From a virus, in the IMG/VR virus record IMGVR_UViG_3300042474_000476, positions 1 through 49,708 of that record: a DNA stretch of 49,708 bases, one strand, 5' to 3'. Below the pieces are notes generated by a model, which searched no databases, was not told the origin of the DNA, and saw only the letters and a list, made by a program, of their open reading frames with translations. Both the position numbers and the translations under genes were made by a program. Below are positions 2,131 to 42,934 of the stretch, in pieces (positions within the stretch are counted from its first letter, which is position 1; the number at the start of each line of letters is the position of its first letter).

Positions 2131-2551
2131 GTTTATTTCTCGCTATATAGTTAGTCACTACTTTAACTAGTTCAGCATGAGTATTGTTAAACCATTGTTC
2201 AACATGATAGTCAACCTGTGTTGGGGGTTCAAATATGGTATTAGTATCTGCAAATTGGCCTTCTTCAATGGTGTCCATCCAAATAGTATAGTCAGCTTTA
2301 AATATATTTCTTAATTCTTCTGTGGGGCAAATAAAATCTGCTACTACTATTTTACCGGCTAGTTCAATACCATCTGCCAGATACCTCATTCGTTGTGCTT
2401 GTCTTAGACGTCCTTCAGAAGTAAAATCCCAATCATCATATTTTCCTCTAACTTGATCGGCATTGACCCATACTCCGCCAATCAACTCTGCCAATGGTTT
2501 GGCTAAAGTTGACTTACCACTTCCTGGTAATCCCATAATCAATATTTTCAT
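2123..2551 (-). CDS. APS-kinase-like P-loop small-molecule kinase
   Basis: A small cytoplasmic P-loop kinase of the adenylylsulfate kinase type. Residues 7-15 are a Walker A motif, GLPGSGKST. WVNADQVR (about 28-35) matches the APS-kinase substrate segment with the Asp and Arg that contact the nucleotide. VVADFICPTEELR (about 69-81) matches the characteristic S/DFISPxxxxR stretch. At 142 aa it is shorter than bacterial CysC (about 200 aa) and lacks part of the C-terminal region, so true APS kinase activity is uncertain; phosphorylation of another small metabolite or sugar is possible. The start forms an ATGA overlap with the stop of the carbamoyltransferase gene, so the two are probably translationally coupled. 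Phage genomes sometimes carry such kinases in surface-glycan clusters. Confidence 0.8.
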   Translation of the reverse strand: MKILIMGLPGSGKSTLAKPLAELIGGVWVNADQVRGKYDDWDFTSEGRLRQAQRMRYLADGIELAGKIVVADFICPTEELRNIFKADYTIWMDTIEEGQFADTNTIFEPPTQVDYHVEQWFNNTHAELVKVVTNYIARNKRV

Positions 2552-4023
2552 GACAATACCCTTACACCATATAGTTGTTCAAAACGGTCAGCATCTGCAC
2601 GATCATTGACCATGGGTTCGCCACGTATATTTAGACTGGTATTTAACAACATAGGACATCCAGTCCAAGTGTACCATGCTTCTAGTAATTGTCTTATACC
2701 GCTGCCATCTTTTGATACTGTCTGTACCCGACTAGTTTCATCAGCATGCACGATAGCAGGAAATTCTTGTGGACGCAAACACCCAGCCACTGTCTGCATG
2801 TACGGACTAGTCTTCCACCCGCGTGGCATGGCAAAATATTCTTCAGCTAACTCTTCTAAGATAACAGGTGCGAAAGGACGGAACTTCTGGCGACGTTTGA
2901 TTTCATTGACTCGATCTTTTATGTCGGGCCCACGAGGGTCTGCTAATAAACTACGATTACCCAAGGCTCTCGGACCAAATTCAGCACGTCCACTAGCCAC
3001 TCCAACTATTTTATTTGTTACGAGTTCATTGAGGATATCTTTGACTGGATAAGCTCCAGGTATATCAGTGCCAAGGAAAGCCGTGCGCCAATCTAATCTC
3101 TTGCCATAGGTCAGGGCAGCCGCACCAAGACTGCTGCCAGCGTCACCCGGATTTGGCATGATCCAGATATTGTCAAAGTATTCTCCTAACATTTCATTAG
3201 CACTGCAATTGAGAGCACACCCTCCCATGTAGACTAAATTCCTACCATGGCCTATCTGTCGAGCTCGTTCCATGATAGCTTTTAGGCACAGTTCAAATGA
3301 ATACTGCGCACTGGCCGCGATAGTTTCATTGCTGAGTTCCGGCATGTATTCATCACAGCCAAGGTGTAGATTATACTTAAATTCCAATAGGTGTCGATTA
3401 GCAACAAAGTGACTGTGCAAAGGCATAAACTGTGTGCCGTAGGCAGCCATACCCATCAGGATATATTCTTCATCTAGAGGTTTAAGTCCAGCACGTTTGG
3501 TCATGGCTGAATAGAACAGTCCAAGGCTGTGTGGATACTTTTGGCTCCATAGTTTCTCATATCGGGCTTGGCCATCTACGTATTCAGCAGACCAAATACT
3601 GGCTGTGTCCCATTCACCTATGGCATCAATGACAACTACTGTAGCACGATCATATGGACTTGTTTGGAATCCTGCGGCAGCATGGCTGAGATGATGCGGA
3701 TAATAGTCAATTGGTAACTTGTCCAGACCACTCCAAGATGCTACTTCTCTAAGAGTGGTACGCAGAGATCGGAAATTAAATGCTTCTTTATATTGTCCAG
3801 CATAGAGTTGGCGAGTGCGTTTAACCCAAGGGCGTTCGTAGTAGGCAATGCGATCTGGCATGCCGTATTGACTGACACAGTCAGACAGGATCTTGGTGTT
3901 TAATTCACTGTCGTGTTTCTTTTTGCTATAGCGTTCACTGTGTGCGGCAAATAAGATCTTATCATCGCTGATAAGACTTACTCCCGCGTCATGAAACCCA
4001 GCCGAGATGCCTAATATGTTCAT
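2548..4023 (-). CDS. NodU/CmcH/TobZ-family O-carbamoyltransferase
   Basis: Expected to transfer carbamoyl from carbamoyl phosphate, through carbamoyl-adenylate, to a hydroxyl of a sugar or other small molecule in the cytoplasm. It has both family domains. The N-terminal Kae1-like part shows ILGISAGFHDAGVSL (3-17), the metal-binding histidines in PHHLSHAAAGF (109-119), VVIDAIGEWDT (130-140), GGCALNC (about 267) and NPGDAGSSLGAA. The C-terminal YrdC-like part shows GRAEFGPRALGNRSLL, FRPFAPVILEE, TSRVQTV and LLNTSLNIRGEPMV. At 491 aa it is shorter than TobZ or NodU (about 570 aa) but all hallmark motifs are present, so it is probably active. Its 5' end overlaps the upstream SGNH gene by 35 bases and its stop overlaps the kinase start. 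Carbamoylation of a nodulation-factor-like, LPS or glycan sugar is the natural inference. Confidence 0.93.
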   Translation of the reverse strand: MNILGISAGFHDAGVSLISDDKILFAAHSERYSKKKHDSELNTKILSDCVSQYGMPDRIAYYERPWVKRTRQLYAGQYKEAFNFRSLRTTLREVASWSGLDKLPIDYYPHHLSHAAAGFQTSPYDRATVVVIDAIGEWDTASIWSAEYVDGQARYEKLWSQKYPHSLGLFYSAMTKRAGLKPLDEEYILMGMAAYGTQFMPLHSHFVANRHLLEFKYNLHLGCDEYMPELSNETIAASAQYSFELCLKAIMERARQIGHGRNLVYMGGCALNCSANEMLGEYFDNIWIMPNPGDAGSSLGAAALTYGKRLDWRTAFLGTDIPGAYPVKDILNELVTNKIVGVASGRAEFGPRALGNRSLLADPRGPDIKDRVNEIKRRQKFRPFAPVILEELAEEYFAMPRGWKTSPYMQTVAGCLRPQEFPAIVHADETSRVQTVSKDGSGIRQLLEAWYTWTGCPMLLNTSLNIRGEPMVNDRADADRFEQLYGVRVLS

Positions 4024-4645
4024 AGATTTTATCTGCTACTATCGCATGCCCTTGTTCTAAGAAATGTCCATCAGGTCCTTGAGGGGTTCCGTATGTCCAT
4101 TCCATCATGGTTTTATTTGGCCATCCTGGATAGTACATTGGATCAATTTGATTTGCCAATTGAGGAACTAATAATCTCATTTTTTCTCTAGGGGATGTTG
4201 GATCATAACATTCAGTAAATGCGTCCAACATAATGTATTTCTTATTTGTTTGTTTAAGATAATTTTGTAATAAGATAACACGAATTAACTGTTGTGAATA
4301 TAGATATAGATCGTCATGATGTCGATTAATATAGTTTAATAAGTCTCGTCTATATGTTAATTCATCTTTAAAAAGGTTACCTGTACTCCCAGGCCAAATA
4401 TCATATATGCCGTGTTCATCTGCCATTTCAATTCTAGCAAAATGACTCCATGCTACTATAACAATGTCGTAGTCGCTAGCATGTTCGACGGTATTGCGTA
4501 GAATCTTAGTATTACCTGCGCCAGGTTTTCCTAAATTGGTTATTTCGCTATTAAGTTTTTTACCTAAAAGATAAGGCCAAGCAAAATTACGATCTGCTAG
4601 TTCTTCTCCGTAGGTAAAACTGTCACCAACTGCTAATAAACGCAT
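3989..4645 (-). CDS. SGNH/GDSL-hydrolase-like protein (218 aa)
   Basis: An SGNH-fold ester-hydrolase-like protein. Block I is LAVGDSFTYGEEL (4-16) with the candidate nucleophile Ser8. PGAGNTKIL (about 40-48) supplies Gly and Asn of the oxyanion hole. Block V is GPDGHFLEQGH (about 190-200), giving the Asp-x-x-His pair. There is no signal peptide, so it should act inside the cell. Family members remove or transfer acetyl groups on carbohydrates, or hydrolyse lipids and esters. The gene starts with a TAATG junction with the 33-aa mini-gene upstream and its end overlaps the carbamoyltransferase by 35 bases. It is related in plan to the 263-aa protein at 4721, so the operon holds two SGNH proteins. 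The substrate is unknown; sugar O-deacetylation or acyl transfer is only inferred. Confidence 0.75.
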   Translation of the reverse strand: MRLLAVGDSFTYGEELADRNFAWPYLLGKKLNSEITNLGKPGAGNTKILRNTVEHASDYDIVIVAWSHFARIEMADEHGIYDIWPGSTGNLFKDELTYRRDLLNYINRHHDDLYLYSQQLIRVILLQNYLKQTNKKYIMLDAFTECYDPTSPREKMRLLVPQLANQIDPMYYPGWPNKTMMEWTYGTPQGPDGHFLEQGHAIVADKIYEHIRHLGWVS

Positions 4646-4746
4646 TATTTGTAAATGAATGGATCTCTTTTACGTAATTCTTTTAGTTTTTTACGATATT
4701 GAATTTCTAGCTTGATACGATTAATAATGTTTTTTAACCAACTCAT
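4645..4746 (-). CDS. 33-aa basic mini-protein ending in DPFIYK
   Basis: A short gene in the interval between the two SGNH genes. It reads M-SWLKNIINRIKLEIQY and then RKKLKELRKRDPFIYK, a lysine/arginine-rich amphipathic helix with a distinctive C-terminal DPFIYK. A strong ribosome binding site (TAAGGAGA) lies 6 bases before the ATG, inside the end of the 263-aa gene. The stop overlaps the next start as TAATG. The good RBS, the exact fit between neighbours and the low-complexity-free sequence support a real gene. Function is unknown; a nucleic-acid- or membrane-surface-binding helix is possible. I have an impression that short proteins ending this way recur in T4-like marine phages, but that needs a search. 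Confidence 0.72.
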   Translation of the reverse strand: MSWLKNIINRIKLEIQYRKKLKELRKRDPFIYK

Positions 4747-5512
4747 CAAATTTCTCCTTAATTAATTTTACTGCATCTTTATGGGCATCTTCTAAGGGAT
4801 GACCGTCGTGTCCTATACTATACTTATTCTCCACTGCCCATTGGTAAAAGCCTCTTGGTGCTTGGGTTTCATTAGCTTGTGTTCCAACTGGAAAAAAGAA
4901 CCACATCTTCCAATCAATTTGATTATACAAGCAAGATATAGTATCATCTTGCTTGGCAATCGTGTAATTATTTAAGAATCCAGTGTCTGCACAGGTAAAA
5001 AGATGAGGAATATTATTTACTTTTAGATAATTCTGTAGATAAATTATTTCCTTTAAGGTTGAATATGTTTCCCAATACTCCAAAAATCCTACATTGGCAA
5101 AATAACATTTAGCAAATTCACCTATACCGAGTTGATCTGTTTTAATTTTATGTTTATCAACTAATAGATTATTTCCGGCATCATGATCATCGTATTGTTT
5201 TCCAATTGACCATGTATTAATAACTTCCCATCGTTGAGTTTCTTTAATATTAAATCTAAACTCGTATCTATTAGGAAATGTCCAAAATACCATAGCAATT
5301 TGTTTTTTATTTTTATTTTTTTCACAGGTTGTCATAGTCATTCTGGCAATACTATCATTTGCATTTCCGGGATATGCTGCACATTGATATTCAAAATCTT
5401 TAGCAAGTAATGCCGGAAATGTATTCATGCTATACCCAAGAGGACCTCCATGGTGGCTGTCTGCCAACTCACTGCCCCAGATAAAACTATCACCCCCTGC
5501 TACTAAAATCAT
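4721..5512 (-). CDS. SGNH/GDSL-hydrolase-like protein (263 aa)
   Basis: Second SGNH-like protein in the operon. Block I is LVAGGDSFIWGSEL (3-16) with candidate nucleophile Ser9. YPGNANDSI (about 48-56) carries the oxyanion-hole Gly and Asn. The C-terminal HDGHPLEDAHK (about 233-243) holds the Asp-x-x-His type block V with a second His further along. There is a central insertion rich in aromatic residues compared with the 218-aa relative. No signal peptide or membrane segment is seen. The start lies 23 bases inside the upstream 364-aa gene, and the last 26 bases overlap the 33-aa mini-gene. A role in de-esterifying or acylating the same compound handled by neighbouring enzymes is inferred from context only. 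Confidence 0.75.
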   Translation of the reverse strand: MILVAGGDSFIWGSELADSHHGGPLGYSMNTFPALLAKDFEYQCAAYPGNANDSIARMTMTTCEKNKNKKQIAMVFWTFPNRYEFRFNIKETQRWEVINTWSIGKQYDDHDAGNNLLVDKHKIKTDQLGIGEFAKCYFANVGFLEYWETYSTLKEIIYLQNYLKVNNIPHLFTCADTGFLNNYTIAKQDDTISCLYNQIDWKMWFFFPVGTQANETQAPRGFYQWAVENKYSIGHDGHPLEDAHKDAVKLIKEKFDELVKKHY

Positions 5513-6584
5513 ATCCTGGCTTCATCATGTTAATTTGTTGTTGTTTATAATCTGCATCAGTCCAGCAATAATCAAATGTGTTTTTTATTCCATCCACTTC
5601 TATACTGTAGATATCTAGGTGTTGTTCTAACTGATCCCATATTTCTTGATAATTTGAAGTTTCAAAACTACGGTGTAGATCAACTTGTCCTATAGGCAAA
5701 TATCCTAAACTTAAACTAGGATCTTTTGGGTCGCGATCGTTATCTATCAGCCATTGTCTGAACTGATCCTGCTCTTCGTTGTGCCAGGGATTATTCCCAC
5801 CATAGACAATATCGTTGGCCCATTCTATATCAAATTCTCCGCTGTAATACTTTAATTCTGTGATAGCATCACAAACTGTATCGGTCAGTTTGAGAGCACC
5901 TTCATCACGAAATACTTCATACAGTGTTTTACCAATCTGTGTCCAATGCATATATACTCCGCCAAACACACGATCATATCCATTGACTTTAAATCCTTGC
6001 CTATGCTCATCTGTTAAATCATACCGACGAGTATTTAAAAATGTGGTAATTTGACTAGGTCTGACCCAATATGGTAATGTTACTACTTTTCGTTGACTTA
6101 GTATTAAGTTTTCCATTTCATGGCAAAGTGTATTCAATTCACGTATAGCATATTTGGTAGTGTAGTCAGCACGTTTATAATAATCACTAAGCCCCCACAC
6201 CGTGCCTTGCAAATGCTCGAAATGGTTGTGTAATCGATTTAATATCTCATGGTTAGGGCCATTCGAATCATAATCTGTAGCTACGATATTTTCGGGGGTA
6301 AAATACTCTTCAATCTGATAATCAGGAAAAAAATCATTTATTACGGTTATCGCCTGATTCACTTCATTACATAAAAACGGTAAAGATCTGGCTGTTTTAG
6401 GAAATCCCATGAAGCAGAAATTCTTTTCTAATAGATTACCTGATTCTAATAAAGATTTTAATGCCGATATCCAATCCTGGGCCAATTGGGTATTGTTAGG
6501 CGCAATGTAATAGTCTAATAGATCTGTATGATCTAAAGGATTACGCAGGGTTACCTTAACAGTTGATTGATTGATACCACTCAT
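5490..6584 (-). CDS. Unrecognised 364-aa protein linked to the radical SAM array
   Basis: Not recognised. It is a soluble, acidic, aromatic-rich protein without signal peptide, membrane segment or clear catalytic motif. Visible features are an N-terminal segment with FCMGFPKTARSLPFLCNEVN (about 56-75), a central GFKVNGYDRVFGGVYMHW (about 194-211) and a C-terminal SLSLGYLPIGQVDLHRSF (about 294-311). Histidine, aspartate and tyrosine are frequent, but no repeated metal-binding pattern stands out. The start overlaps the last radical SAM gene by 29 bases and the end overlaps an SGNH gene by 23 bases, so it is made from the same mRNA. It may be a partner or accessory protein of the radical SAM enzymes, or another enzyme of the same pathway. 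No function is proposed. Confidence 0.6.
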   Translation of the reverse strand: MSGINQSTVKVTLRNPLDHTDLLDYYIAPNNTQLAQDWISALKSLLESGNLLEKNFCFMGFPKTARSLPFLCNEVNQAITVINDFFPDYQIEEYFTPENIVATDYDSNGPNHEILNRLHNHFEHLQGTVWGLSDYYKRADYTTKYAIRELNTLCHEMENLILSQRKVVTLPYWVRPSQITTFLNTRRYDLTDEHRQGFKVNGYDRVFGGVYMHWTQIGKTLYEVFRDEGALKLTDTVCDAITELKYYSGEFDIEWANDIVYGGNNPWHNEEQDQFRQWLIDNDRDPKDPSLSLGYLPIGQVDLHRSFETSNYQEIWDQLEQHLDIYSIEVDGIKNTFDYCWTDADYKQQQINMMKPGYDFSSRG

Positions 6585-7869
6585 ACACTTCTCGTCTTTC
6601 CAGTAAAATGTCAGCCAAAGTTAAACTATCTTGGCGGATACTCTCTAATTGTAGCACACGACGTTTGCCTTCTGCAAGAGCTGTTTGCCAAGTATCTGGA
6701 TATTGTTCCTGGAAGGTTGGGCGTAGTTTAAGCTGGATTAGTATGTCCCTTAACGAGCTATTTTGCAGGTGACCTGCAGGGTCTTGGCTAACCAATAGTT
6801 CATCTATCCAAGGATGTAATATCTCTTTGGGTAGGGCTAAAGGCGACATGATAATATCCGGGCTAAAACTAAAGACAACTTTGGCAAGTATGTCTACGCC
6901 CAATTCTGTAGCTAACTTCTCAATATTACGAAGTTCAAACATACCCGGCAGGGTAAGTGTAAAGTCTATTCGTGCTTGTCTACGGTGAGTAGAGATTCCC
7001 ACAACTTCCTGAAAGTTTGCAAGCCACGACGCATAGTCGAGACCTGTGCGGATATATTCTCCAATTGCTCCCGTGCCATCGAGGCTTGCACAGATCTGCC
7101 AGTCACGTAGCCTAGACAAAATATCAGTGCAGAGATTGATGCCGCGATAATTGATGCGACTAAGATTAGTGTTGTATCTAGCGTAAACATTTGGTCCATC
7201 TCCCAGTTCAACAATGCGGTGCATGTATCGCCAATGTTGTTCATACATCAGGGGCTCTCCGCCTACCCAATATACTTCCTCGATTCGATGTTCCTCCACT
7301 GCGGCAGCGAACTCTTGCTCTATTACAGAGCTTTGGAACTTTTCAATTTCGCTTTTAACTTCCGGACGCATCCAATTATTCTTTGGATTATCCCAATTGA
7401 TCATGTCGTGTTGTCTCTGTTCAGTTTCCCATGCACTAGACAACATGTCACCACACATGCGACACTTAAAGTTACAGAGATTACTAAAGCGGTAATCCCA
7501 ACTTACAGGCCGCATAGTTGTTGAACCATGCTCGTCTGTAGTGTCCCATATACTCATATACTTATGGCCGAACATCTGATTAAAATAACTACGGTAAACG
7601 TCTGTGTTAAGTAGTTTATCATTGCACACTTCACATTCAGGTAAGATTTCTCCTGCCATCATACGACGACGCACTGATTTCATATGATCGCTGTTCCAAT
7701 GTTCTTCTAAGGTAATAGGAATATACGTGCCTGTGCCACTAGCAGTATCTATATACTGTTCAAAGTTCTGTGCAGGCTCGCGGCTAGCACAGCACATACG
7801 ACGTTCAGTCTGAGGACTTAGGTATGTATGTACCCAAGGTGCTAGACAAAGTGTCTTAGGTTTTTCCAT
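6556..7869 (-). CDS. Radical SAM protein with N-terminal twitch/SPASM-like Cys module (array member 6)
   Basis: Radical S-adenosylmethionine enzyme. The 4Fe-4S site is CNFKCRMC (132-139, CxxxCxxC) and the SAM-binding GGEP motif lies in YWVGGEPLM. Before it is a cysteine module with CLAPW (Cys8), a CC pair (26-27) and CEVC (79-82). That pattern resembles a twitch/SPASM auxiliary-cluster domain, which in many families sits at the C-terminus but is N-terminal here. At 437 aa the remaining C-terminal half is a partial TIM barrel with a helical tail. It is the last of six consecutive radical SAM genes, overlapping the previous one by 14 bases. Such enzymes generate a deoxyadenosyl radical to modify peptides, sugars or other substrates; the substrate here is unknown. 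The family call is firm. Confidence 0.92.
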   Translation of the reverse strand: MEKPKTLCLAPWVHTYLSPQTERRMCCASREPAQNFEQYIDTASGTGTYIPITLEEHWNSDHMKSVRRRMMAGEILPECEVCNDKLLNTDVYRSYFNQMFGHKYMSIWDTTDEHGSTTMRPVSWDYRFSNLCNFKCRMCGDMLSSAWETEQRQHDMINWDNPKNNWMRPEVKSEIEKFQSSVIEQEFAAAVEEHRIEEVYWVGGEPLMYEQHWRYMHRIVELGDGPNVYARYNTNLSRINYRGINLCTDILSRLRDWQICASLDGTGAIGEYIRTGLDYASWLANFQEVVGISTHRRQARIDFTLTLPGMFELRNIEKLATELGVDILAKVVFSFSPDIIMSPLALPKEILHPWIDELLVSQDPAGHLQNSSLRDILIQLKLRPTFQEQYPDTWQTALAEGKRRVLQLESIRQDSLTLADILLERREVYEWYQSINC

Positions 7870-9058
7870 ATCCCATTGCCTTGGCTATTTCGTTGTGTGA
7901 ATCTAAGAAACTTTGTTCTCTGTATTCATCTGTAGTTTGCATCTTACGTAAGAATTCTTGGCCATTACTACCTTCACCGTTCTTAATAAATTGCACTATA
8001 CGCAAAACTTCTGCTTTAAACTTAGGTGTAAACTCATGTGAAGTTAATCTATTGATAACTAACTCTCGTGCAGGTGCTGTCATCTTACTAATGCACATGT
8101 GCCACGGATCATGCAACATATTAAAGTAAATGTGATCAAACGTCTGTGTTGAGATCCAATCGCATAGCTCTGGTAGGTAGTAGACATTCTGTATGTTCAT
8201 AGTAGTGCAGAGTTGCGTTGATATCTTGCTACTACGTATAGCAGTAAACTTGGCAATATTTGTCTGCACTTCTTCCCAATCTGCCCCATAGCGTTCATAT
8301 TCAAACCGATCATCTACGTTATCAATACTAAATGCTATTTCAACGTGTTTAAAATTACTCCATAACTCTGCAGATTCTGGGAATACTGTTCCATTAGTGT
8401 TATAATGTATCTCGATATTCTCACTAAATCCATGTTCTACTGCATAACGTAATAGATCAAAATGCTGTTCTATTAGGAATGGTTCTCCACCAGTGAACTC
8501 AAAATATTTTATATTAGGCAGTAGTGTTTTTAAGTTATCCCAAAATATTTCGCTCTCGCGCGGCCAGGCTCCGTCTTTAAGATAGGTATATGCTAAATGT
8601 GTTTTTCTATCCACTAACTCAGGAATATAATCTATTTCTTCCTTGGCCCATTTGCTACTAGACCACGACCCACAGATACGACATTTAAGATTGCAAATAT
8701 TGCCCAATTTTAGATCAATAAACCATAGTTGATTAGGGTCGATATTTGTCCAATCAACTCTATCATAATATTCCTTTAGTCTAATGCGACTGTTCATGCG
8801 TTTACTTACTCGCCCAGCAGCTTCTTCATCCCAACAACGACTACATGTTTCTGGCTTACCGCCCGCGAGGAATTCTTTACGTAGGCCCTGCATATACCCA
8901 CTGTGATAAATTTCTTCTAGAGTATTTTCTTTGAGGTTATATTTTCCACCATCTGTTCGCATGATTTCATCCTTGGCTAAACAACAAGGACGAGCCGTGC
9001 CTATAGGACTGGTTTCGATACTAACCCACGGTAGCATACATATTTTCTCAGGCAACAT
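7856..9058 (-). CDS. Radical SAM protein with N-terminal twitch/SPASM-like Cys module (array member 5)
   Basis: Radical SAM enzyme of 400 aa. The cluster site is CNLKCRIC (122-129), preceded by DLKLGN, and the SAM-contact motif is FTGGEPFL. The N-terminal auxiliary module has CMLPW (Cys7), a CC pair (25-26), a LEEIYHSGYMQGLRKEF helix, and CSRC (72-75). This helix-then-CxxC order is the same as in SPASM domains (W/Y-x-S...R...CxxC). The following text is the usual partial barrel, including a YNTNGT strand typical of the family. It overlaps neighbours by 11 and 14 bases. Of the six it is the most canonical, so catalysis is likely intact. The substrate is not predictable. Confidence 0.92.
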   Translation of the reverse strand: MLPEKICMLPWVSIETSPIGTARPCCLAKDEIMRTDGGKYNLKENTLEEIYHSGYMQGLRKEFLAGGKPETCSRCWDEEAAGRVSKRMNSRIRLKEYYDRVDWTNIDPNQLWFIDLKLGNICNLKCRICGSWSSSKWAKEEIDYIPELVDRKTHLAYTYLKDGAWPRESEIFWDNLKTLLPNIKYFEFTGGEPFLIEQHFDLLRYAVEHGFSENIEIHYNTNGTVFPESAELWSNFKHVEIAFSIDNVDDRFEYERYGADWEEVQTNIAKFTAIRSSKISTQLCTTMNIQNVYYLPELCDWISTQTFDHIYFNMLHDPWHMCISKMTAPARELVINRLTSHEFTPKFKAEVLRIVQFIKNGEGSNGQEFLRKMQTTDEYREQSFLDSHNEIAKAMGYGKT

Positions 9059-10361
9059 AACTTCTTAAATCCTTATACTCTGTAAACACATCCTCAAATC
9101 GTTCTTTTCTATATGCATCATGTATGTCATTTACTCTGAAGAATTCTTGGAGCAAATGGCTATTATCATTAGCATTCATAAAGTGTAGCATACCTTCGTA
9201 TCCGCTAGTAGCACGCTGTAAATGATCTTGCGGGCGCAACCATTCAATGTGCTTTTGAACTTTAGCTGTTACTGATTCTTTATATTCTGCAGGTAATGTA
9301 TCAATGCGATCGCGTTCAGGTCCTTGTAGAATATTGATATTCCAATCCTGTGCTTTTAAATATCCTTGATCAACCCAAGCACGGTGAAAATCTGTTACAT
9401 GATCAGCATTATAAAGACTCACTGTACTACTAACATAGAAATCAGTGTTAGGACATGCTGTTAACATATCTTCACGATTGCGTTCAATTTGATCCCACTT
9501 GGTTCCTTTGCGTATATATTCTGCTCTAGATCCCATGCCATCAAGGCTAGCACCAATACTGACATTTTTAAATAACTTCCAATAATCAAGAACATTGTCA
9601 TCTTTTAATGTTAACCTACTAAAGTTAGTATTGTAAATCAATTTAACATTAAACATTTCACGCTTAACAAGTTCTTTAAGTATACGATAATGTTCTTCCA
9701 TCATCATTGGCTCACCACCCGCAAAGTAAACCTGCTCTAAGTATGGTATATGAGGTACTAATTGTTCCCACATATCTGTTTCTGTGCGACCGGCAAACAT
9801 GATTTTAGGATAGTTACGTTTACCGTATAGTTCTTCTTCTTCAGTATACCAACTGCTACTAAACCAGCCGCCGCAGGTACGACAAGTAAAGTTACACAAG
9901 TTACTAAAACGTATATCATAGTAACGTAATTTAAAATCTTCAAAGGTTCCATCTGATTTAGTCTGATCTACGATAGTAATATGCTGCCCAAAGTTTTTAT
10001 TGGTGCTATTACGCATGCTGATAAATCCATTAGCTTCTTGTTCGTAACATTTACTACATTCTTTACAAGGTTGGTCTTCTAACATGTTTTTACGCATAGT
10101 TTTATAAGCATCTTGATTCCAAACAGATTCCATTGTATCTTGTTTGAAATTACCAATAGGATACTTATCATCGCCGAGACAGCAAGGATATGCGCGACCA
10201 TCAGGAAAGGCATGCATGTGTATCCAAGGTATCATGCAGAATACACCACTACGAGTCAACCGATCCAATTGATCAGATCTTAGCTTGCTTTCTTCAATAT
10301 AAACTGGTTTACGATCATTATAATTATAATTTTCGTAATAATCTTTTTCTTTATTACTCAT
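9048..10361 (-). CDS. Radical SAM protein with N-terminal twitch/SPASM-like Cys module (array member 4)
   Basis: Radical SAM enzyme of 437 aa with a 40-residue hydrophilic, tyrosine-rich N-terminal extension. The auxiliary module reads CMIPW (Cys42), CC (60-61), GNFKQDTMESVW, and CKECSKC (99, 102, 105), a full SPASM-like order with one more cysteine than its neighbours. The radical SAM site is CNFTCRTC (156-163) and the SAM motif is YFAGGEPMM. The ASLDG strand typical of SPASM-type peptide and sugar enzymes is present (GASLDGMGS). It begins with an ATGA overlap with member 3 and its end overlaps member 5 by 11 bases. Target unknown. Confidence 0.92.
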   Translation of the reverse strand: MSNKEKDYYENYNYNDRKPVYIEESKLRSDQLDRLTRSGVFCMIPWIHMHAFPDGRAYPCCLGDDKYPIGNFKQDTMESVWNQDAYKTMRKNMLEDQPCKECSKCYEQEANGFISMRNSTNKNFGQHITIVDQTKSDGTFEDFKLRYYDIRFSNLCNFTCRTCGGWFSSSWYTEEEELYGKRNYPKIMFAGRTETDMWEQLVPHIPYLEQVYFAGGEPMMMEEHYRILKELVKREMFNVKLIYNTNFSRLTLKDDNVLDYWKLFKNVSIGASLDGMGSRAEYIRKGTKWDQIERNREDMLTACPNTDFYVSSTVSLYNADHVTDFHRAWVDQGYLKAQDWNINILQGPERDRIDTLPAEYKESVTAKVQKHIEWLRPQDHLQRATSGYEGMLHFMNANDNSHLLQEFFRVNDIHDAYRKERFEDVFTEYKDLRSYVA

Positions 10362-11719
10362 AGAGTATCATACCACTCAGCTAATTGTGGGAACGTAGCT
10401 CTAAAGTCTTTACCTCTACGTTGATCATACTGCTCGTAAAAGTTCTTAAAGTCACGTTGTAATACCTGTAATGCTTGAGAATCTTGTTCAGGCTCATGTA
10501 GGTATTCAATCAATCTACTCAATTGATTTAATTCAAACTCATGACAGAATACATCATCAGCCATAATACCGTAAGCAAACGCTAACTCATCAGCATATTG
10601 CTCACGTACTACCAATGGTAATACTAAGACACTTTGAAAGCTAGGAAAACGTAAGATATTTAGACTAAAGTTAATACTGTCACGACCATATTTACGTTTA
10701 AGATTAACGATACTAATCAAGAATTCTCTGAGACTCAATAAGCATAAGGCATTTATAGTACACATAACATGAAGGCCACGCAGTTTGCCGCTATCCAATA
10801 GATATACCACATTACTGCACCATTGATCCCAATCCAGGCCATCACGTATATAAATCGCGTGTCGGCCAATACTTTCATTGCTGGTATATAAATCCAGTTC
10901 AATACCTTCCGTAGCATCTAATAACCTTTCTAATTTATCTTGTTCAAATCCTAAGTTGCTGTTTATAGCAAGCCGCGTAGCACTCTTGTCACGATTAGCT
11001 TGGAACCAATCAATCAGTCTCCAGGTATAACCAGACATGAGTGGCTCACCACCTGTGATCCTTAGTTCTTTCAGCGTTTTGTGGAGGTCTGTTTCCCACC
11101 ACTTGAAGAAGGCTTCCACATAGGGATTAACATCATTGATAGTATACAACTGACTACTATCGTGCTCATGAGTGAAATGATTCCTACCATCCGAAACCAA
11201 ATTGGTATATCCGCCATTACGCCGGATGTCTTTAACCCAAGTACTACTAAAAGCTGGATTACAATAGCTACAAGCGAACTGGCAAGTGCGATCGAAAGCA
11301 ATCTCCAGGGTCTGTAGGTTAATGTCTTGTTCTGCGTTAGTATTGAAAGCTTCATCTAAGTCTCCATCATCATATATAACTGTTTTATAAACACGGTCGC
11401 TAATAATCTCATCAGATGCGTCCTCTTGATCTGCTATGTCTTCTATCTTCCAGCAGTAGGAACACCCTTCTGGACGTTCACCCTGTTGCATCATACGACG
11501 TTCTTTTTTCTTCTGAGGCGTATTGTGTAAGGCTTTAGGATTAGTTTTAATTGCTTCTACATCAATAGCGTGCGGTAGTGGATGGTGACAGCTGGTAGTC
11601 TGTCCACTGCCTAACCATATAGTAGCGTTGTACCATTTAGCCGCACAGAAACTAGCAGACTTGATATCAATCACTCTACGTTTGTATTGTACGTCTGACT
11701 CGTTAGCTATTTTCGGCAT
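10358..11719 (-). CDS. Radical SAM protein with variant N-terminal module (array member 3, type B)
   Basis: Radical SAM enzyme of 453 aa. Cluster site CQFACSYC (146-153), SAM motif LRITGGEPLM. Its N-terminal module differs from members 1, 4, 5 and 6: CAAKW (Cys25) is followed by SCHHP (Cys44) instead of a CC pair, then NPKALHNT, KKERRMM, GERPEGCSYCWKIED (CxxC at 86-89). The same set is found in member 2, so this is a distinct subfamily. One auxiliary-cluster ligand may be a histidine, or the module may not hold a full cluster. The start overlaps member 2 by 17 bases and the end makes an ATGA overlap with member 4. A paralogous origin with member 2 is clear. Activity is likely, substrate unknown. 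Confidence 0.92.
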   Translation of the reverse strand: MPKIANESDVQYKRRVIDIKSASFCAAKWYNATIWLGSGQTTSCHHPLPHAIDVEAIKTNPKALHNTPQKKKERRMMQQGERPEGCSYCWKIEDIADQEDASDEIISDRVYKTVIYDDGDLDEAFNTNAEQDINLQTLEIAFDRTCQFACSYCNPAFSSTWVKDIRRNGGYTNLVSDGRNHFTHEHDSSQLYTINDVNPYVEAFFKWWETDLHKTLKELRITGGEPLMSGYTWRLIDWFQANRDKSATRLAINSNLGFEQDKLERLLDATEGIELDLYTSNESIGRHAIYIRDGLDWDQWCSNVVYLLDSGKLRGLHVMCTINALCLLSLREFLISIVNLKRKYGRDSINFSLNILRFPSFQSVLVLPLVVREQYADELAFAYGIMADDVFCHEFELNQLSRLIEYLHEPEQDSQALQVLQRDFKNFYEQYDQRRGKDFRATFPQLAEWYDTL

Positions 11720-13097
11720 GCCATTTACACTCTTGCCAGAATTCTTTCATCTGTGGAAACGTCTGTTCAAAACTTAATCCACGACGTTGATCATATTCGT
11801 GAAAGAAACGATAAAAATCAGCACGTGTATCGTGTAGATACTTTTCACCTAGTTTTTTACCTTTCTTCATCCAGTCAACATCACGCTCTAATCGTTGTAT
11901 CTCATAATCTTTAAATCCATCAAATCTATCACTGTCCTCATCTAAGCGATTTAACTTCATCCATTTGGCTACATTTTCTAATATCCGCACATAGCTCTCT
12001 GGCAGGATCTGCAGGCTTTGCCAGCTGGGTGTTCTCAACACAGGAGTATCAAACCAAACACGTTGATAGGTTGTGCTGTATAGCCTACGCAACTCTAAGA
12101 TGTGTTCTAATAGACGTTGTAGTCCTAAGATACTAAGATTATTCATTGTGATGATATAGGTCAAACTGTTACGATCTGGGACCTGTGTTAGATAACGATG
12201 CACGTAGGCTTGGTTGCGTTGGAATTCTAGTCCGTCACGTATGTATTCAGCATGTTCAGCGATACCGGTGTCTAAACTCACATACTGCATGAAATGTTCT
12301 ATCTTTGTACCTGTGCATAAGTCTTTGACTTTAGCAAGATACTTTGCAAATAATTCTTCTGGCACACTGAAGTTACTCGTGACGTCTACATGTAGATCAC
12401 TCTTAGGACTAGCCAGGATATAGTCAAACACGCGATGTGTGTTCTTATCCATTAGAGGTTCACCACCAGTCATGCGGAAGTGTTTAAGACTACCATATAA
12501 GTCAGGCCACCAACGCCAAAATGCTTCTACATAGGGATTGTTCTCACGTACAGGAATAGGTTGGCGACGTCCTTTAAAGTGCATAGGATCATTGTGTGGG
12601 CTCTTTGTAGGATATGCTCCCCAACGTTCCATGTCTTTGCCCCATTCAGTTGAGAACTGCGGACTACAATAACTACAGGCTAGATTACAGCCGTGACTAA
12701 AATTTACTTCAACATAACTAGGAGTAACATCGGCATCCCATGGTTGATCGACTATGTTGTTGTAATGTTCTGCTGCCCAAGGTTCACCACTGCGGTAATG
12801 ACGATCGCTTAGATGCCCGGCATCTTCCATGGTCCAGCAGTAGTTACATTCTTTAGGACGTTCGCCTGCCAGCATCTTCTTGCGTTGTTCTTTCTTATAT
12901 GCTGTGTTATGCAAGGCACTAGGATGGAACTCTAACGGTTGCGCATCAATCTCATGTAGTGGAGGATGGTAACAGCTATTGTTAAGTCCTGTGGGTAAAT
13001 GTAGGCTTACCTGTTGCCATTTAGCCAGACAAAGACTATGTCCTAACTTATCCTTCATCTCTTCTGCCGCTGTCATAAATTTACTTTTAGTTGTCAT
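11703..13097 (-). CDS. Radical SAM protein with variant N-terminal module (array member 2, type B)
   Basis: Radical SAM enzyme of 464 aa, closest in this window to member 3. Cluster site CNLACSYC (137-144), SAM motif FRMTGGEPLM. The N-terminal module has CLAKW (Cys23), SCYHPPLHEID (Cys42), HPSALHNT, KKEQRKKM and GERPKECNYCW (84-87). Both type-B proteins also share NPYVEAFxxWW just before the GGEP strand and FxxxYDQRRG near the C-terminus (FHEYDQRRG). The shared C-terminal signature suggests a common partner or substrate class. It begins with an ATGA overlap with member 1. Catalytic residues are present, and no truncation or frameshift is seen. Confidence 0.92.
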   Translation of the reverse strand: MTTKSKFMTAAEEMKDKLGHSLCLAKWQQVSLHLPTGLNNSCYHPPLHEIDAQPLEFHPSALHNTAYKKEQRKKMLAGERPKECNYCWTMEDAGHLSDRHYRSGEPWAAEHYNNIVDQPWDADVTPSYVEVNFSHGCNLACSYCSPQFSTEWGKDMERWGAYPTKSPHNDPMHFKGRRQPIPVRENNPYVEAFWRWWPDLYGSLKHFRMTGGEPLMDKNTHRVFDYILASPKSDLHVDVTSNFSVPEELFAKYLAKVKDLCTGTKIEHFMQYVSLDTGIAEHAEYIRDGLEFQRNQAYVHRYLTQVPDRNSLTYIITMNNLSILGLQRLLEHILELRRLYSTTYQRVWFDTPVLRTPSWQSLQILPESYVRILENVAKWMKLNRLDEDSDRFDGFKDYEIQRLERDVDWMKKGKKLGEKYLHDTRADFYRFFHEYDQRRGLSFEQTFPQMKEFWQECKWHAENS

Positions 13098-14170
13098 AGA
13101 TTTTTAAATACCTGGGTTAATGCTTCTTTTTTAAATGGTAATACATCAAATAATTTTTCATTCCTAATATTATCTAAAAGTAATGTATGTAATACAGTAT
13201 CCTTAAAGAATTCTTTGTTTACATTATTATTAATTTGTGATCTCATAAAATTAATTTTGCTTTTATCATCATAAAGTTTATCTATTTTATCAATACATGC
13301 TAGTGCTTGATCTTTTAAACTATCTGGTATTACAGATAAACTTAAATAATCTGGAAAATATAAATCTGTTAATGTTACATTAAATCCTAAAAAATATTCT
13401 AGCAATTCATCAAGAAACCAAATATTTAAAATACTCACAGTTGTTGTAATTTGTATGCTTAGATTTGTATTAGAATTTTGATATTCTTTTAGTTTTATAA
13501 AATTCTTTTCAACTGTTTGCCAATCTGCACCTGATCTGATTAAATTAAACTTTTCACCTACAGCATCAATGCTTGACATTACTGTTACACGTTTAAAATG
13601 TTTCCATATATCTAGAATATCTTTATCTTTAAATTTTAATGTAGTCAGATTAGAATTATATGATAATGATATATTTTTACTGTACTCTAGACTAATTAAT
13701 TCTTCTAATAATTCCCATTGTTCAACATTAATAAACGGTTCACCACCAGTGTAGTATATACTTTGCACGATAGGAGACAATATATAATTTTTATAATTTA
13801 CGATATCTTGTTGTTTAATAGGTATAGTATGTCCTAATTCTATAGCCCATTGGCTGCTGTTATCTGGACAACAGGTCCTACATTTTATATTACATAGATT
13901 AGAATTCCGTACATCAATAAATTGATATCCTAGTGCATCTGTTTTCATACTGTTAAATTGTTGTCTATAACTATTTGATCCTCTAGCTTCTGCATCTATA
14001 CACTTATTACACACACCGGGCGCAGATCCTGTTCTTATATCTGCAAATGGATCATCCCCTATATCAGCGATAGGTTTTCTATAAGAATAATCTATTAGAC
14101 AACAAGGTGCTATTGTTCCATTCTGATAGAATGTCACTCCATGATCGATAGCCGCGCATGTCCAGGTCAT
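13094..14170 (-). CDS. Radical SAM protein, AT-rich and shortest (array member 1)
   Basis: Radical SAM enzyme of 358 aa. The cluster site is CNIKCRTC (93-100), followed by an extra Cys at 101, and the SAM motif is YYTGGEPFI. The N-terminal module is compact: Cys5 (TCAAID, without the usual PW), CC at 23-24, and CNKC at 54-57. A YNSNLT strand and a SSIDAVG strand follow, as in SPASM-type enzymes. The gene is clearly richer in A and T than its neighbours (for example 11 G/C in bases 13141-13200 against 25 in 12481-12540) and uses many AAA, AAT and TTA codons, suggesting separate acquisition. It is the first of the six in transcription order, with ATGA junctions at both ends. Confidence 0.9.
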   Translation of the reverse strand: MTWTCAAIDHGVTFYQNGTIAPCCLIDYSYRKPIADIGDDPFADIRTGSAPGVCNKCIDAEARGSNSYRQQFNSMKTDALGYQFIDVRNSNLCNIKCRTCCPDNSSQWAIELGHTIPIKQQDIVNYKNYILSPIVQSIYYTGGEPFINVEQWELLEELISLEYSKNISLSYNSNLTTLKFKDKDILDIWKHFKRVTVMSSIDAVGEKFNLIRSGADWQTVEKNFIKLKEYQNSNTNLSIQITTTVSILNIWFLDELLEYFLGFNVTLTDLYFPDYLSLSVIPDSLKDQALACIDKIDKLYDDKSKINFMRSQINNNVNKEFFKDTVLHTLLLDNIRNEKLFDVLPFKKEALTQVFKNL

Positions 14171-15066
14171 TCTCTTTCCATTATTCCTTTATTCTTAAAT
14201 ATACTCTTGTAGTGGTGCTTAAAGAAACGACTTTCTTCTGGGTCCATATCTACGATAGGCAGGCTTAGTTTTTGTCTTAGTTGATTCCCAATACTGGTGC
14301 AATGATCTGGTGTATCATTCTCAAACTCTTTCCATAATTCTGCTAAGGCATCAAAGTCCTGCACTTGTCGATAATCCCATTCTTTATTTAACATGGTCAT
14401 CCATGTGCCTAAGCGTGCACCATATATTGACCAAAAACCATTATCGACATCTGCACCAACTGTTTGCCAAATACATAGATGATCATAGTTACGATTGTGT
14501 ACTTTAACTTCAAAATCTACAAGTCCTGGACGCTTGCCACGATCTAAACACATCTTTACACCTTCACGGAATCCTGCTCGCCATGCTTGGAATGGTGTGG
14601 CATTGGGATATGTAGTTGAATAGCAATCGTGCATGGCCCAATAGTTGGGATAAAAACAAAACTCTACGTCATTGGCTTCAGTTCCATCTGTATTCTCATG
14701 TGTACGCATAGCATAGACAAATTCTTTAGTCCAGCAACTTAATCCGCCATTGCCATACATCAATCCATTGGCGTGATTACGTGCCTTCCAGCGGAACACT
14801 TTATTTTTAGAGTCTTTGTCTAACTTTAACTGTAGATTAAAGAATTCAGCGTCCGGTATGTTATCACCATCAATCAATACAAAGCGATCAGTAGTGCTAG
14901 CATCTGCGGCAGCTTTGTGTGCTGCATCGCTACCTTTGACTCCGTCTACTCGCTGGGCCCACGGTACTATATTTTGGATCTTAATCCAAGTCTCTTCTTT
15001 ACGAGGTTCGTCATAGCTAAGATAGATGCAGTCTAGATCTGCTATATCAATTATTTCTTTTGTCAT
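14167..15066 (-). CDS. Glycosyltransferase-like protein with DGDN motif (299 aa)
   Basis: Probable nucleotide-sugar-binding, GT-A-like protein. Residues about 11-18 (LDCIYLSY) form a first beta strand, HKAAADAST (50-58) a helix, and FVLIDGDNIP (62-71) a strand ending in DGD, the place where GT-A enzymes carry the metal-binding DxD. RNHANGLMYGNGG (about 97-109) is shared with the 433-aa protein at 829-2130. WRAGFREGVKM (about 172-182) also has a counterpart there (WRTAFREVIKL). No membrane segment is seen. It sits directly upstream of the six radical SAM genes, overlapping the first by an ATGA and the 120-aa gene by 20 bases. Transfer of a sugar to a phage or host glycan is inferred; the family is not precisely identified. 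Confidence 0.7.
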   Translation of the reverse strand: MTKEIIDIADLDCIYLSYDEPRKEETWIKIQNIVPWAQRVDGVKGSDAAHKAAADASTTDRFVLIDGDNIPDAEFFNLQLKLDKDSKNKVFRWKARNHANGLMYGNGGLSCWTKEFVYAMRTHENTDGTEANDVEFCFYPNYWAMHDCYSTTYPNATPFQAWRAGFREGVKMCLDRGKRPGLVDFEVKVHNRNYDHLCIWQTVGADVDNGFWSIYGARLGTWMTMLNKEWDYRQVQDFDALAELWKEFENDTPDHCTSIGNQLRQKLSLPIVDMDPEESRFFKHHYKSIFKNKGIMERE

Positions 15067-15409
15067 AATATCCTACATCTGTATATTTCTCGCCCGGCTC
15101 AACAACGATTCCAGCATGATTCTTTACTATTTTAACACCTTTTGTGCTAAGAGTCAAACTAAAATAATAATTATAAGTTGGTTTCCTTTCAACTATCTGT
15201 CCTTTTTCTACCCATAACCACTGGCATTCTAAAGTTTGATATTCTATTTTGGTTATTGGTACCCAATTTTCATTATTTTCCGGAAAAGTATTTGCCATGG
15301 TATATAAAATCTTGCCCGTATCATCGTAATAAGCACGATATTCTTCATTTACTATTATAGGACTAATACTTTGAAATGCTTTAATAAATTCTATCTCAGT
15401 CTGATTCAT
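15047..15409 (-). CDS. Unrecognised 120-aa protein with EYRAYYDDTGKI motif
   Basis: A small soluble protein without recognised catalytic residues. An N-terminal helix (IEFIKAFQSI) is followed by EYRAYYDDTGKILYTM (about 23-38) and a WVPITKIEYQTLECQWLWVEKGQIV segment (45-69), then a beta-rich C-terminal part (YYFSLTLSTKGVKIV). The R-Y-YDDxGKI...I...Y...VxxGxIV arrangement is the kind seen in small phage proteins of unknown role; this is an impression, not a search result. It overlaps the upstream glycosyltransferase-like gene by 14 bases and the downstream one by 20. It may be an accessory protein of the same pathway or an unrelated phage protein. Confidence 0.65.
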   Translation of the reverse strand: MNQTEIEFIKAFQSISPIIVNEEYRAYYDDTGKILYTMANTFPENNENWVPITKIEYQTLECQWLWVEKGQIVERKPTYNYYFSLTLSTKGVKIVKNHAGIVVEPGEKYTDVGYYDKRNN

Positions 15410-16226
15410 TTACAAAATCCTTTTCATGATAGTGTACAGGATGATATTGATTAATATTGTTAATTCTTATCATTGTTCCATCATGCTCAACATTTACATG
15501 CTCAGTCCAAGGTTGACGATCGCTCCACCCTTGTATACTAGATTTCATATGTACAAAATTAAAAAAATCCAGCGTAGGAACTACACATTTTTCGATGCCA
15601 ATAATTTTAGCAGTAATAGCATAAACTACATCAGTAGTAGGTTCTTGATCGCAAAGTAACATTTCTTGTTGAATTATGTTCCAATTAGTATAGATATTTT
15701 TAGCCGTCTTAAAAAAATCAACAGCGGTTTGACTATATCGAAAATACATCATGCCGTTGTAAATATCAGGAAGATCATTTACCTCAAATAATTTTCTATA
15801 CGGAGACTTTGTCACACGCCGACCTTGATAATCTCGACAATTAAAGCTAAGGCAAACATCACGTAATCTTAATGCATGCAACCAATGCCCTATATCGCGA
15901 GTAAACAATAAATCACTTTCTAATTTGATAGTTTCTTTAAATGGAGTTAAATTCATCACTTGCCATTCATTACTAAGTTTCCATGATTGATTTTTAGCTA
16001 AATCAGTTGGCAATTCTATTACATAATCAAATATCTTGCGATGCTTATCAGTTACTTGATACAAAGTATCAGAATCAACGATAACTGCATATTGATTATC
16101 TATCTGTGTATTTTTGATATTTTTGGCCTGTTGGTATGCCAAATTCAAATAATCGACCTTAGTATTTTGTGCGATAGTTAAGAATCCAAATGGTGATTTA
16201 AATTCACGCATTTGTAGCTGTCTCAA
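15396..16226 (-). CDS. GT-A-like glycosyltransferase homologue with ESD motif (276 aa)
   Basis: Glycosyltransferase-like protein. FLTIAQNTKVDYLNLAYQQA (15-34) is the first strand and helix of a nucleotide-sugar fold; IKLESDLLFTRD (about 99-110) has the DxD-like ESD in the place expected for metal binding; YNGMMYFRYSQTA (about 156-168) resembles the FNAGVMVF-type strand of family 8-like enzymes. C-terminal histidines (HPVHYH) lie near the end. It is a paralogue of the 259-aa protein just upstream (AxNTxxxDYLxxA in both). No signal or transmembrane segment. It starts 23 bases inside that gene. Substrate and acceptor cannot be named. Glu for the first Asp of DxD is tolerated in some families, so activity is uncertain. 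Confidence 0.7.
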   Translation of the reverse strand: MRQLQMREFKSPFGFLTIAQNTKVDYLNLAYQQAKNIKNTQIDNQYAVIVDSDTLYQVTDKHRKIFDYVIELPTDLAKNQSWKLSNEWQVMNLTPFKETIKLESDLLFTRDIGHWLHALRLRDVCLSFNCRDYQGRRVTKSPYRKLFEVNDLPDIYNGMMYFRYSQTAVDFFKTAKNIYTNWNIIQQEMLLCDQEPTTDVVYAITAKIIGIEKCVVPTLDFFNFVHMKSSIQGWSDRQPWTEHVNVEHDGTMIRINNINQYHPVHYHEKDFVNESD

Positions 16227-16983
16227 TTAATTGCTTTAATTCATCACTAACTAGATATTCTTTACTCATGACATGTATGCTCTGTTTGGGCAATACATAA
16301 CCTTGATCATCTATTTGTAAATAAAACTTTTGTCCTTTTAAAGATAATCTTTGTATAGATTTGTTAATGCTGACGATTGGCCACGGAAGGTAATTGCGAC
16401 TGTCTTGATGATAGCCATTGATGATATTATCTGCGATCGTAAAGGCAAAATCATTGCGGAAATTTAGGGCAGATATATTATATAATCGCCAATAATAAAT
16501 AAAATTACGCTCAATCCTAGCTACCAAATCAAATAACATCTGACTCTTGGCTGTTTTATTAAATATCACCACTGTGGCCCATAATGTAGACAGGCTGTAT
16601 TTTCCCATCAATGATGAGGGGGTATCGCCAACGAAATGATTATGTCTGGCTATGGTATAATCTTGTACCGTGTCTAGTATTTTTAATAGATTGCGATCAA
16701 ATATTAAATAATCACTGTCTAATAATATAGTCTGATCATATGGACTGTGTTCATATGCAGCATGTCGGCCACTGTTGTTCCACGGTTCAAATTCCCCGCT
16801 GTCTGTGTTATAGCGTTTGTTTTTGATCGAGGATTCTCCCCCGATTATGGTCACTGGCAATCCTAGATAATGATTGATCAGGCGCTCAGCACGGTGGGCT
16901 ATGGCCAGATAATCTATGGTATCAGTATTTTTAGCAAACAGTACCACACCCCTAGATTTTCCTGATGCGTTTGAGTTCTTCAT
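16204..16983 (-). CDS. GT-A-like glycosyltransferase homologue with DSD motif (259 aa)
   Basis: Glycosyltransferase-like protein. VVLFAKNTDTIDYLAIAHRA (13-32) forms the first strand and helix; LPVTIIGG (42-49) the second strand; YDQTILLDSDYLIFDRNLL (about 82-100) carries DSD in a classic DxD position; LWATVVIFNKTA (about 134-145) is the following strand. This is the pattern of small retaining GT-A enzymes such as family 8. It is paralogous to the 276-aa protein downstream, but the DxD is complete here. No membrane segment. Its start lies 32 bases inside the 105-aa gene. The pair probably acts on one pathway; a nucleotide-sugar donor is inferred but not identified. Confidence 0.72.
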   Translation of the reverse strand: MKNSNASGKSRGVVLFAKNTDTIDYLAIAHRAERLINHYLGLPVTIIGGESSIKNKRYNTDSGEFEPWNNSGRHAAYEHSPYDQTILLDSDYLIFDRNLLKILDTVQDYTIARHNHFVGDTPSSLMGKYSLSTLWATVVIFNKTAKSQMLFDLVARIERNFIYYWRLYNISALNFRNDFAFTIADNIINGYHQDSRNYLPWPIVSINKSIQRLSLKGQKFYLQIDDQGYVLPKQSIHVMSKEYLVSDELKQLIETATNA

Positions 16984-17269: not shown

Positions 17270-17300
17270 ACTAGTAATTATCTTAAAAAGTTTGGGTCAA

Positions 17301-17327
17301 AATAAAAGCACCAATGGTGCCTTTATT
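17301..17327 (-). terminator. Factor-independent terminator closing the virion operon
   Basis: A stem with GCACC, loop ATT and GGTGC, extended by A/T pairs to 12 positions with one mismatch (AATAAA against TTTATT). On the minus strand it is followed by TTTTATTTT. It lies 27-53 bases after the stop of the 313-aa structural gene. It is nearly symmetric and could also act for plus-strand transcripts, but no plus-strand gene leads into it. Confidence 0.8.
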
Positions 17328-17353
17328 ATATACTTTTAGCCAACTCGTGTCAA
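17325..17353 (-). promoter_or_regulatory. Consensus host-type sigma70 promoter for the accessory operon
   Basis: On the minus strand, TTGACA (17353-17348) is followed after exactly 17 bases by TATAAT (17330-17325), a perfect match to the bacterial vegetative consensus. Transcription should start near 17318, inside the terminator hairpin, about 50 bases before the first start codon. The -35 box touches the stop region of the 313-aa gene. This arrangement would express 829-17269 early or in the middle phase with host RNA polymerase. Confidence 0.82.
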
Positions 17354-18295
17354 TTAACTGACAGTTATGGTTCCCCAAACATCTGCTAAGTACGTGACTT
17401 CTGGTTTTACCACATCAATCCTGTGGCGGAATGTGCCAGACACTGCATCATCGAATGCTTCATCTGCACCGTCTGTGTAGGTTATATCATAGATAACCTG
17501 CGTGCCTAGGCCACCATTGGAGCCAGCTGCGCCAGCTACTCTCATGAGTACTTCCAGAGTATTGGCTGTATAGTTTGCATTATCGCTGGTAAGTTTTAAT
17601 ATGGTTTGATTGCTGGTTGTGAGATCCCAATATCCGATAGCTAGTCCATTGGTGGTCAATGTCTCACCTGTACCTGTACGGGTGCTGGTTAGTTGATCTA
17701 GATGCAGTGTACCTATAGCATTCATTAGATCATTATAGCTGGTTTCTTTGTTGTTATCAGTCAAGCCACTTGGTGAGAATACCAAACTAAGTCTACCACC
17801 TGCGTTGAAGAAATATCTGGCCTGATCAGCTGAAGCAAAAGTAACTGTGATCGTACGTGTAAACGTGGTGGTCGCAAATGTCGCATCAAAATTGGCTGAA
17901 GCAGTAGTAGAGCCACGAGTGCTATTGAAATCTAATTTATTTGTATTAACTGTGGTAACGGCTGTGGCTACGTTGGCAAATGCTTGTATAGTAGCACCTG
18001 CTACGATACCAATATTTGATCCTGATGCTAGTCGAGCACCTGCGCCACTTTGATGGGCTAGTGCTAGATTCAATCTCTGTACAAATGTGCTCCATTGTGT
18101 GGCTGTGACTGTTCCTCCAGCACTTACTGTAGAAATAGCACTGGCATCTTGACCATACCCAAATTGACCATTTCCTACTCCCCATACATAAGCAAAATTA
18201 CTTGGGGTACTGGTATAAGTATTAGTAGTGTTACCTCCCCAGGTTAATAAATTATAATCTAATGCTTGTATCGTTCCACCAGTTGTATATGCCAT
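17354..18295 (-). CDS. Virion structural protein, probably tail or fibre related (313 aa)
   Basis: A Ser/Thr/Ala/Gly-rich beta-structured protein. The N-terminal part (MAYTTGGTIQALDYN and WGVGNGQFGYGQ) and the A-T-QW-xxFVQRLNLALAHQ segment (about 87-103) recall small structural proteins of T4-like marine phages. A fibre-like middle (TVTFASADQARYFFNAGGRLSLVFS, about 150-174) and a C-terminal immunoglobulin-like region ending WGTITVS follow. No signal peptide or enzyme motif. It is the last gene of the virion operon, with an 18-base gap after the fibre gene and a terminator behind. Role as a tail-fibre, collar or decoration protein is inferred from position and composition. Confidence 0.72.
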   Translation of the reverse strand: MAYTTGGTIQALDYNLLTWGGNTTNTYTSTPSNFAYVWGVGNGQFGYGQDASAISTVSAGGTVTATQWSTFVQRLNLALAHQSGAGARLASGSNIGIVAGATIQAFANVATAVTTVNTNKLDFNSTRGSTTASANFDATFATTTFTRTITVTFASADQARYFFNAGGRLSLVFSPSGLTDNNKETSYNDLMNAIGTLHLDQLTSTRTGTGETLTTNGLAIGYWDLTTSNQTILKLTSDNANYTANTLEVLMRVAGAAGSNGGLGTQVIYDITYTDGADEAFDDAVSGTFRHRIDVVKPEVTYLADVWGTITVS

Positions 18296-19776: not shown

Positions 19777-19784
19777 TATTTATC
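19777..19784 (-). promoter_or_regulatory. T4-type late promoter GATAAATA before the 478-aa fibre gene
   Basis: The minus strand reads TGATAAATA, one base from the T4 late consensus TATAAATA. It sits 26 bases before the ATG in one of the few gaps of the operon. It lies just behind a small hairpin, so a new late transcript can begin here. A gp55-like factor that recognises such boxes is encoded at 48706. Confidence 0.6.
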
Positions 19785-42926: not shown

Positions 42927-42934
42927 TATTTATC
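42927..42934 (-). promoter_or_regulatory. T4-type late promoter GATAAATA before gp6
   Basis: The minus strand reads TGATAAATACTATATAATAGG, with GATAAATA 21 bases before the ATG. The 8-mer is identical to that before the 478-aa fibre gene and one base from TATAAATA. It lies in the 52-base gp25-gp6 gap directly after a hairpin. Confidence 0.6.

Follow-up and report, generated by a model that had tools for sequence, protein, structure and literature searches.

A putative transcriptional insulator formed by a superimposed terminator and promoter at an operon boundary of T4-type jumbo phages

Between the virion and accessory operons of a T4-type jumbo phage, an apparent intrinsic terminator and a host-sigma70 promoter are superimposed on the same bases, and together they probably act as a compact transcriptional insulator. 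Transcriptional insulation is well supported by sequence comparison: the promoter, the hairpin with its T-tract, their geometry and their recurrence with covariation can all be read directly from the DNA, and we infer that termination and initiation take the following form. Polymerase coming in from the late virion operon would make the whole hairpin plus U-tract and be released at about 17300. Polymerase started at the promoter would begin at about 17318, inside the hairpin, so that its transcript would be without most of the 5' arm, would carry no terminator and would continue through the accessory operon. Late accessory expression may be added by a second promoter, leaderless and late-type (GATAATTA, 17282-17275), located 3' of the terminator. 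The original prediction had proposed that the same DNA stops incoming transcripts and starts outgoing ones lacking half of the stem, a proposal that its recurrence at the homologous boundary in dozens of related phages supports.

The window (the whole stretch analysed, 49,708 bases of a virus record) is a fragment of a T4-type jumbo phage, kin of RaK2, GAP32 and Phosso; the best relatives of its wedge protein (34-41% identity) are found in the jumbo myoviruses Sinorhizobium phage Phosso, Agrobacterium phage Atu_ph07, GAP32 and RaK2. A DNA-level search of annotated phages with the window found nothing near. All long genes around the boundary lie on the minus strand (Table 1). The first block, running from 48633 to 17354, encodes virion and tail families that include matches to a baseplate wedge protein, a hub/lysozyme and a tape-measure protein, and is separated by 84 bases from a second, tightly packed block (17269 to 829) that encodes several radical-SAM-like proteins and a carbamoyltransferase. 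The virion operon holds one open reading frame of 4,859 codons (24880-39459), as well as three tail genes within 18314-23344 with similar starts and phrog_14394 matches, which are apparently paralogues and have an unlike gene (19809-20708) in between. In the accessory operon, six radical-SAM or radical-SAM/SPASM-like genes follow in succession (6556-14170); the carbamoyltransferase gene (2548-4023) is near this run, and a DegT-type aminotransferase gene (3-848) is on the opposite strand. The first accessory gene had no match in Pfam, PHROG or annotated phages, and a search of Rfam found no RNA family. The start of the gp55-like gene (48706) was chosen by us as the first in-frame ATG.

Table 1. 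Features of the operon boundary and associated late-transcription signals in the window.
Feature	Position	Strand	Basis
gp55-like sigma factor for late transcription	48706..49590	+	PHROG 12791, E 1.5e-81, query 48682-49590
Late-promoter motif TATAAATA, upstream of virion operon	48660..48667	-	
Late-promoter motif GATAAATA, upstream of baseplate wedge gene	42927..42934	-	
Late-promoter motif GATAAATA, upstream of tail gene 18314-19750	19777..19784	-	
Last gene of virion (tail) operon	17354..18295	-	ORF; neighbours with tail/virion PHROGs; homologous ORFs before boundary in relatives
-35 TTGACA	17348..17353	-	sequence
-10 TATAAT, 17-bp spacer, 12/12 consensus	17325..17330	-	sequence
Predicted transcription start, A	17318	-	6 nt between start and -10; within 5' arm of hairpin
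Putative terminator hairpin AATAAAGGCACC-ATT-GGTGCTTTTATT, 12 bp, 3-nt loop, dG -12.9	17301..17327	-	
T-tract TTTTATTTT, expected 3' end of virion-operon transcripts	17299..17307	-	
T4-late-like motif GATAATTA, exactly 5 nt before accessory ATG, possible leaderless late promoter	17275..17282	-	
First accessory-operon gene, 105 aa	16952..17269	-	ORF; 80 viral-contig homologues
Remaining accessory operon, mostly overlapping genes; several radical-SAM/SPASM-like genes, carbamoyltransferase	829..16983	-	

The promoter directly follows the tail gene, whose stop codon (17356-17354) abuts the -35 hexamer with no gap, and it is the only 12/12 match to the sigma70 consensus on either strand of the window (0.095 expected per window by chance in dinucleotide shuffles). 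Its hexamers, its spacing within the 16-18 bp range, its excess over chance and its location on the gene strand are all as expected of a sigma70-type promoter. TTGACA-17-TATAAT had been predicted to reach into the hairpin, and indeed on the minus strand the promoter (17353-17325) runs into the hairpin and T-tract (17327-17299), the last three bases of the -10 doubling as the outer three pairs of the stem. Likewise, the 6-nt gap after the -10 places the predicted start at the coordinate originally proposed, near 17318.

On the sense strand, a G-C-containing hairpin (dG -12.9) followed by a T-run has the sequence of an intrinsic terminator, and the 3' end of late transcripts is predicted more probably near 17299-17303 than near 17295, where it had been placed. 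Within 8000-27000, the hairpin at 17308-17320 has the most G-C pairs of any terminator-like site; it is listed on the plus strand because it is nearly symmetrical, and for the same reason it may stop antisense transcription too. RNA starting at 17318 would retain only ACC of the 5' arm, with a predicted folding energy of -0.3 kcal/mol versus about -10 to -13 kcal/mol for the full hairpin. This outcome hinges on the start: were the gap only 3-4 nt, with transcription beginning 2-3 nt earlier, a stem of about -7 kcal/mol would remain, and even with a start at 17318 the window-type layout loses only two of five G-C pairs together with the A-U extension.

Homologues of the first accessory gene are found at 80 viral-contig loci, which yielded 56 further distinct intergenic sequences (57 with the window) in 47 clusters at 85% identity. 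At nearly all 80 loci, the preceding open reading frame has 310-345 codons and ends 11 to 95 bases before the accessory gene. At strict thresholds, a sigma70 promoter of at least 10/12 is present in 28 of the 47 clusters, against 2.15 in shuffles and 1 antisense, and 35 clusters have a hairpin with T-tract, against 1.1 in shuffles. The corresponding antisense count of hairpin plus T is 26 of 47 clusters; several hairpins are nearly symmetrical with A-runs ahead, and therefore direction is not fully fixed by sequence.

The 57 sequences were sorted by hand into five classes: class A (14 sequences including the window), with the hairpin directly after the -10; class B (18 sequences), in which the promoter spacer holds the 5' arm, the -10 is part of the loop or upper stem and transcription would begin in the loop or 3' arm; class C (7 sequences), with a hairpin followed by a sigma70-like promoter that has its -10 ending 6 nt ahead of ATG; class D (10 sequences), with a hairpin and then GATAAATA exactly 5 nt before ATG; and class E (8 of 57), which is without the combined element. 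L028 and L064 are weak members of their classes, three members of class C (L057, L063 and L067) match the -35 poorly, and the T-tract is weak or missing in L046, L052 and L060. The terminator-less intergenic regions of L051, L071 and L088 retain the exact window string AGATAATTACTAGTATG. The three sigma70 geometries (-10 abutting the hairpin, -10 in the loop, promoter after the hairpin) would serve one job.

The overlap might be a chance juxtaposition that is imposed by short intergenic gaps and is itself under no selection, since the gaps are mostly 37-95 nt and leave little room. This is very improbable: a terminator followed, without overlap, by a promoter fits into 64-74 nt in L054, L057 and L059, and at none of the 29 loci that pass both thresholds is the hairpin left intact by the start. 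At all 29, the predicted start comes after some or all of the 5' arm, whereas with hairpin positions swapped among loci 19% of pairs had a leader that kept the whole hairpin and would self-terminate. Not one of 10,000 such permutations equalled the real set, a figure that serves only as a guide and overstates independence because the 29 loci share ancestry. In the strict set, the full hairpins have predicted folding energies of -9 to -20 kcal/mol, and the promoters' own transcripts only 0 to -2.4 kcal/mol. A poorly resolved tree of the first accessory protein, with few columns and many open forks, calls for at least 13 changes of class, of which the starred branches by themselves force three each for classes A and B; these changes of geometry suggest that function outlives layout. 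Since the arrangement recurs with differing sequences and geometries, it cannot be put down to coincidence in a single genome.

Within the loop layout, the stems covary (GGCATAGT/ACTATGCC versus GGGCGTAG/CTACGCCC versus GGGCATAAT/ATTATGCC) around an almost invariant loop promoter, and paired stem changes accompany a near-fixed loop promoter in, for example, L021, L023, L044 and L077. These observations bear on whether the inverted repeat is instead an operator for a promoter-covering repressor, its arms forming a DNA-binding palindrome and its T-tract being incidental. Palindromes that touch or enclose the -10 do resemble classical operators, L060 retains the palindrome with its T-tract lost, and L027 and L051 have palindromes over the promoter without T-tracts. 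However, stems that are wholly unlike between lineages, with compensatory pair changes within a lineage, fit a structure rather than one recognised sequence; the T-tract follows the sense-side arm in nearly all sequences, and in the loop class T-runs after the hairpin exceed A-runs before it; and the hairpin of classes C and D stands apart from the promoter. An operator is thus distinctly unlikely. The insulator reading extends, with evenly balanced probability, to the proposal that such superimposed units, including the form with the -10 in the loop and the start in the 3' arm, are a recurrent, selected insulator class of T4-type jumbo phages, reinvented with varied sequences and layouts, in which promoter occupancy perhaps strengthens late termination.

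The boundary had also been predicted to isolate a late operon from an early or middle one, and it had been suggested that the two transcription modes might collide there and so regulate the operons. The upstream operon is indeed apparently late-type, because a gp55-like late sigma gene is present and TATAAATA, GATAAATA and GCTAAATA motifs stand ahead of virion genes in the window; "early or middle" fits the accessory operon only partly, given GATAATTA-N5-ATG at 17282-17275. Examined as a TATAAATA-like octamer in a genome with a gp55 factor, GATAATTA is one base off the xATAAATA consensus. For the RaK2-clade phage vB_PcaM_CBB, the relevant part of PMC5259590 reports a gp55-like factor, promoters of RpoD-like type and a late motif, ATAAATA, ahead of structural genes. 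On the gene strand of two of three relatives, ATAAATA peaks 5 nt upstream of ATG (15 versus 3 and 9 versus 1; no peak in the third, 3 versus 5), a position that would give leaderless mRNAs, and in one relative ATAATTA-N5-ATG occurs four times sense and never antisense. G[AC]TA[AT][AT]TA is found in 13 of 14 class A sequences, all ten of class D and none of class B or C (L044 has TCTATATA). Class A is thus likely expressed early plus late, B and C early, and D late. With a sigma70 consensus and GATAATTA-N5-ATG in the late register, the accessory operon of the window may therefore be early plus late, and the claim that it is purely early is not secure.

Taken further, the same motif could mean that the accessory operon is late in practice, with GATAATTA or virion-operon readthrough driving it and with a sigma70 promoter that is weak or a relic. 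Ten related sequences in seven clusters have GATAAATA-N5-ATG, a perfect late motif in the same register as GATAATTA, without a sigma70 promoter, and close variants of the motif are used by the window's virion genes. This is unlikely, however, for a promoter that matches at 12/12 and belongs to a type kept at 10/12 or better in most clusters; moreover, the loop class keeps its sigma70 promoters and has no G-initial late motif ahead of ATG, and GATAATTA itself departs from ATAAATA by one base.

Perfect sigma70 sites in long relatives are strongly biased to the gene strand (30:1, 16:1, 15:1, 12:0 and 8:0 versus the other strand) and are therefore evidently real promoters. Three whole relatives have 157 good promoters sense and 26 antisense; four of the sense promoters break a terminator hairpin and one is followed by a weak intact hairpin, whereas antisense promoters do neither. 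The overlap is therefore not the rule at all promoters of the clade, 12 of the 157 following a hairpin. ATG is exactly 6 nt after the -10 in 25 of the 157 good promoters (G001-G003, loci L120-L172), and leaderless starts look common in the clade. A pattern search found the class A layout in a further set of jumbo-phage contigs, where it stands between gp32 and a virion gene, and in L179, where it follows a major-head-like gene and adjoins an HNH endonuclease gene. At the gp32 boundary (43 clusters), a general overlap was rejected, the arrangement occurring in one lineage (L180-L190 without L186 and L189, by pattern search) and in L229 (by upstream scan). Thus the arrangement is recurrent yet concentrated at the tail/accessory boundary. 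Upstream of gp32 in L233, L239, L243, L247 and L251, the 17-bp sigma70 spacer contains GATAAATA (for example TTGACATTGATAAATAGTTTTGTTATAAT), and early and late promoters would therefore be superimposed there.

The overlap of the E. coli frd terminator with the ampC promoter-attenuator, as described in passages of PMC6045580 (citing Grundstrom and Jaurin 1982), is similar in that the downstream gene's promoter is at the end of the upstream operon, beside the terminator. According to those passages, the ampC promoter is upstream of an intact hairpin, which results in attenuation; the predicted start here is inside the hairpin, which would result in escape, and none of the 29 loci has its 5' arm entirely on the downstream side of the predicted start. 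At the nlpD1 terminator/penA attenuator of Burkholderia pseudomallei, the upstream terminator likewise immediately precedes the downstream gene, and right next to it a promoter can arise (PMC6045580), but that promoter is mutational and the hairpin normally attenuates, whereas here the overlap is inherited in many phages. Phage vB_PcaM_CBB shares the promoter classes, the gp55-like factor and intrinsic terminators, although promoters and terminators are listed separately and a superimposed pair was not found in the pertinent sections of PMC5259590. Compact phiX174 also has host polymerase acting at intrinsic terminators and promoters close by, but the sections of PMC3335065 that treat them describe leaky, graded terminators and no start inside a terminator hairpin. 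Literature on the M13 gene III/VIII overlap and on PA5oct transcript mapping gave no lead, and no published terminator-promoter overlap of this kind was found in the open-access literature.

Judged from its sequence, the element noticed in the original prediction is real and informative, and an insulator is its best explanation. The series of layouts at one gene boundary allows direct reporter testing of the rule. If the rule is true, about 50 bases would perform two opposite jobs, with the choice set only by the start point of the transcript, which would offer a ready design for compact genetic insulators and a simple rule by which operons are separated in packed genomes.
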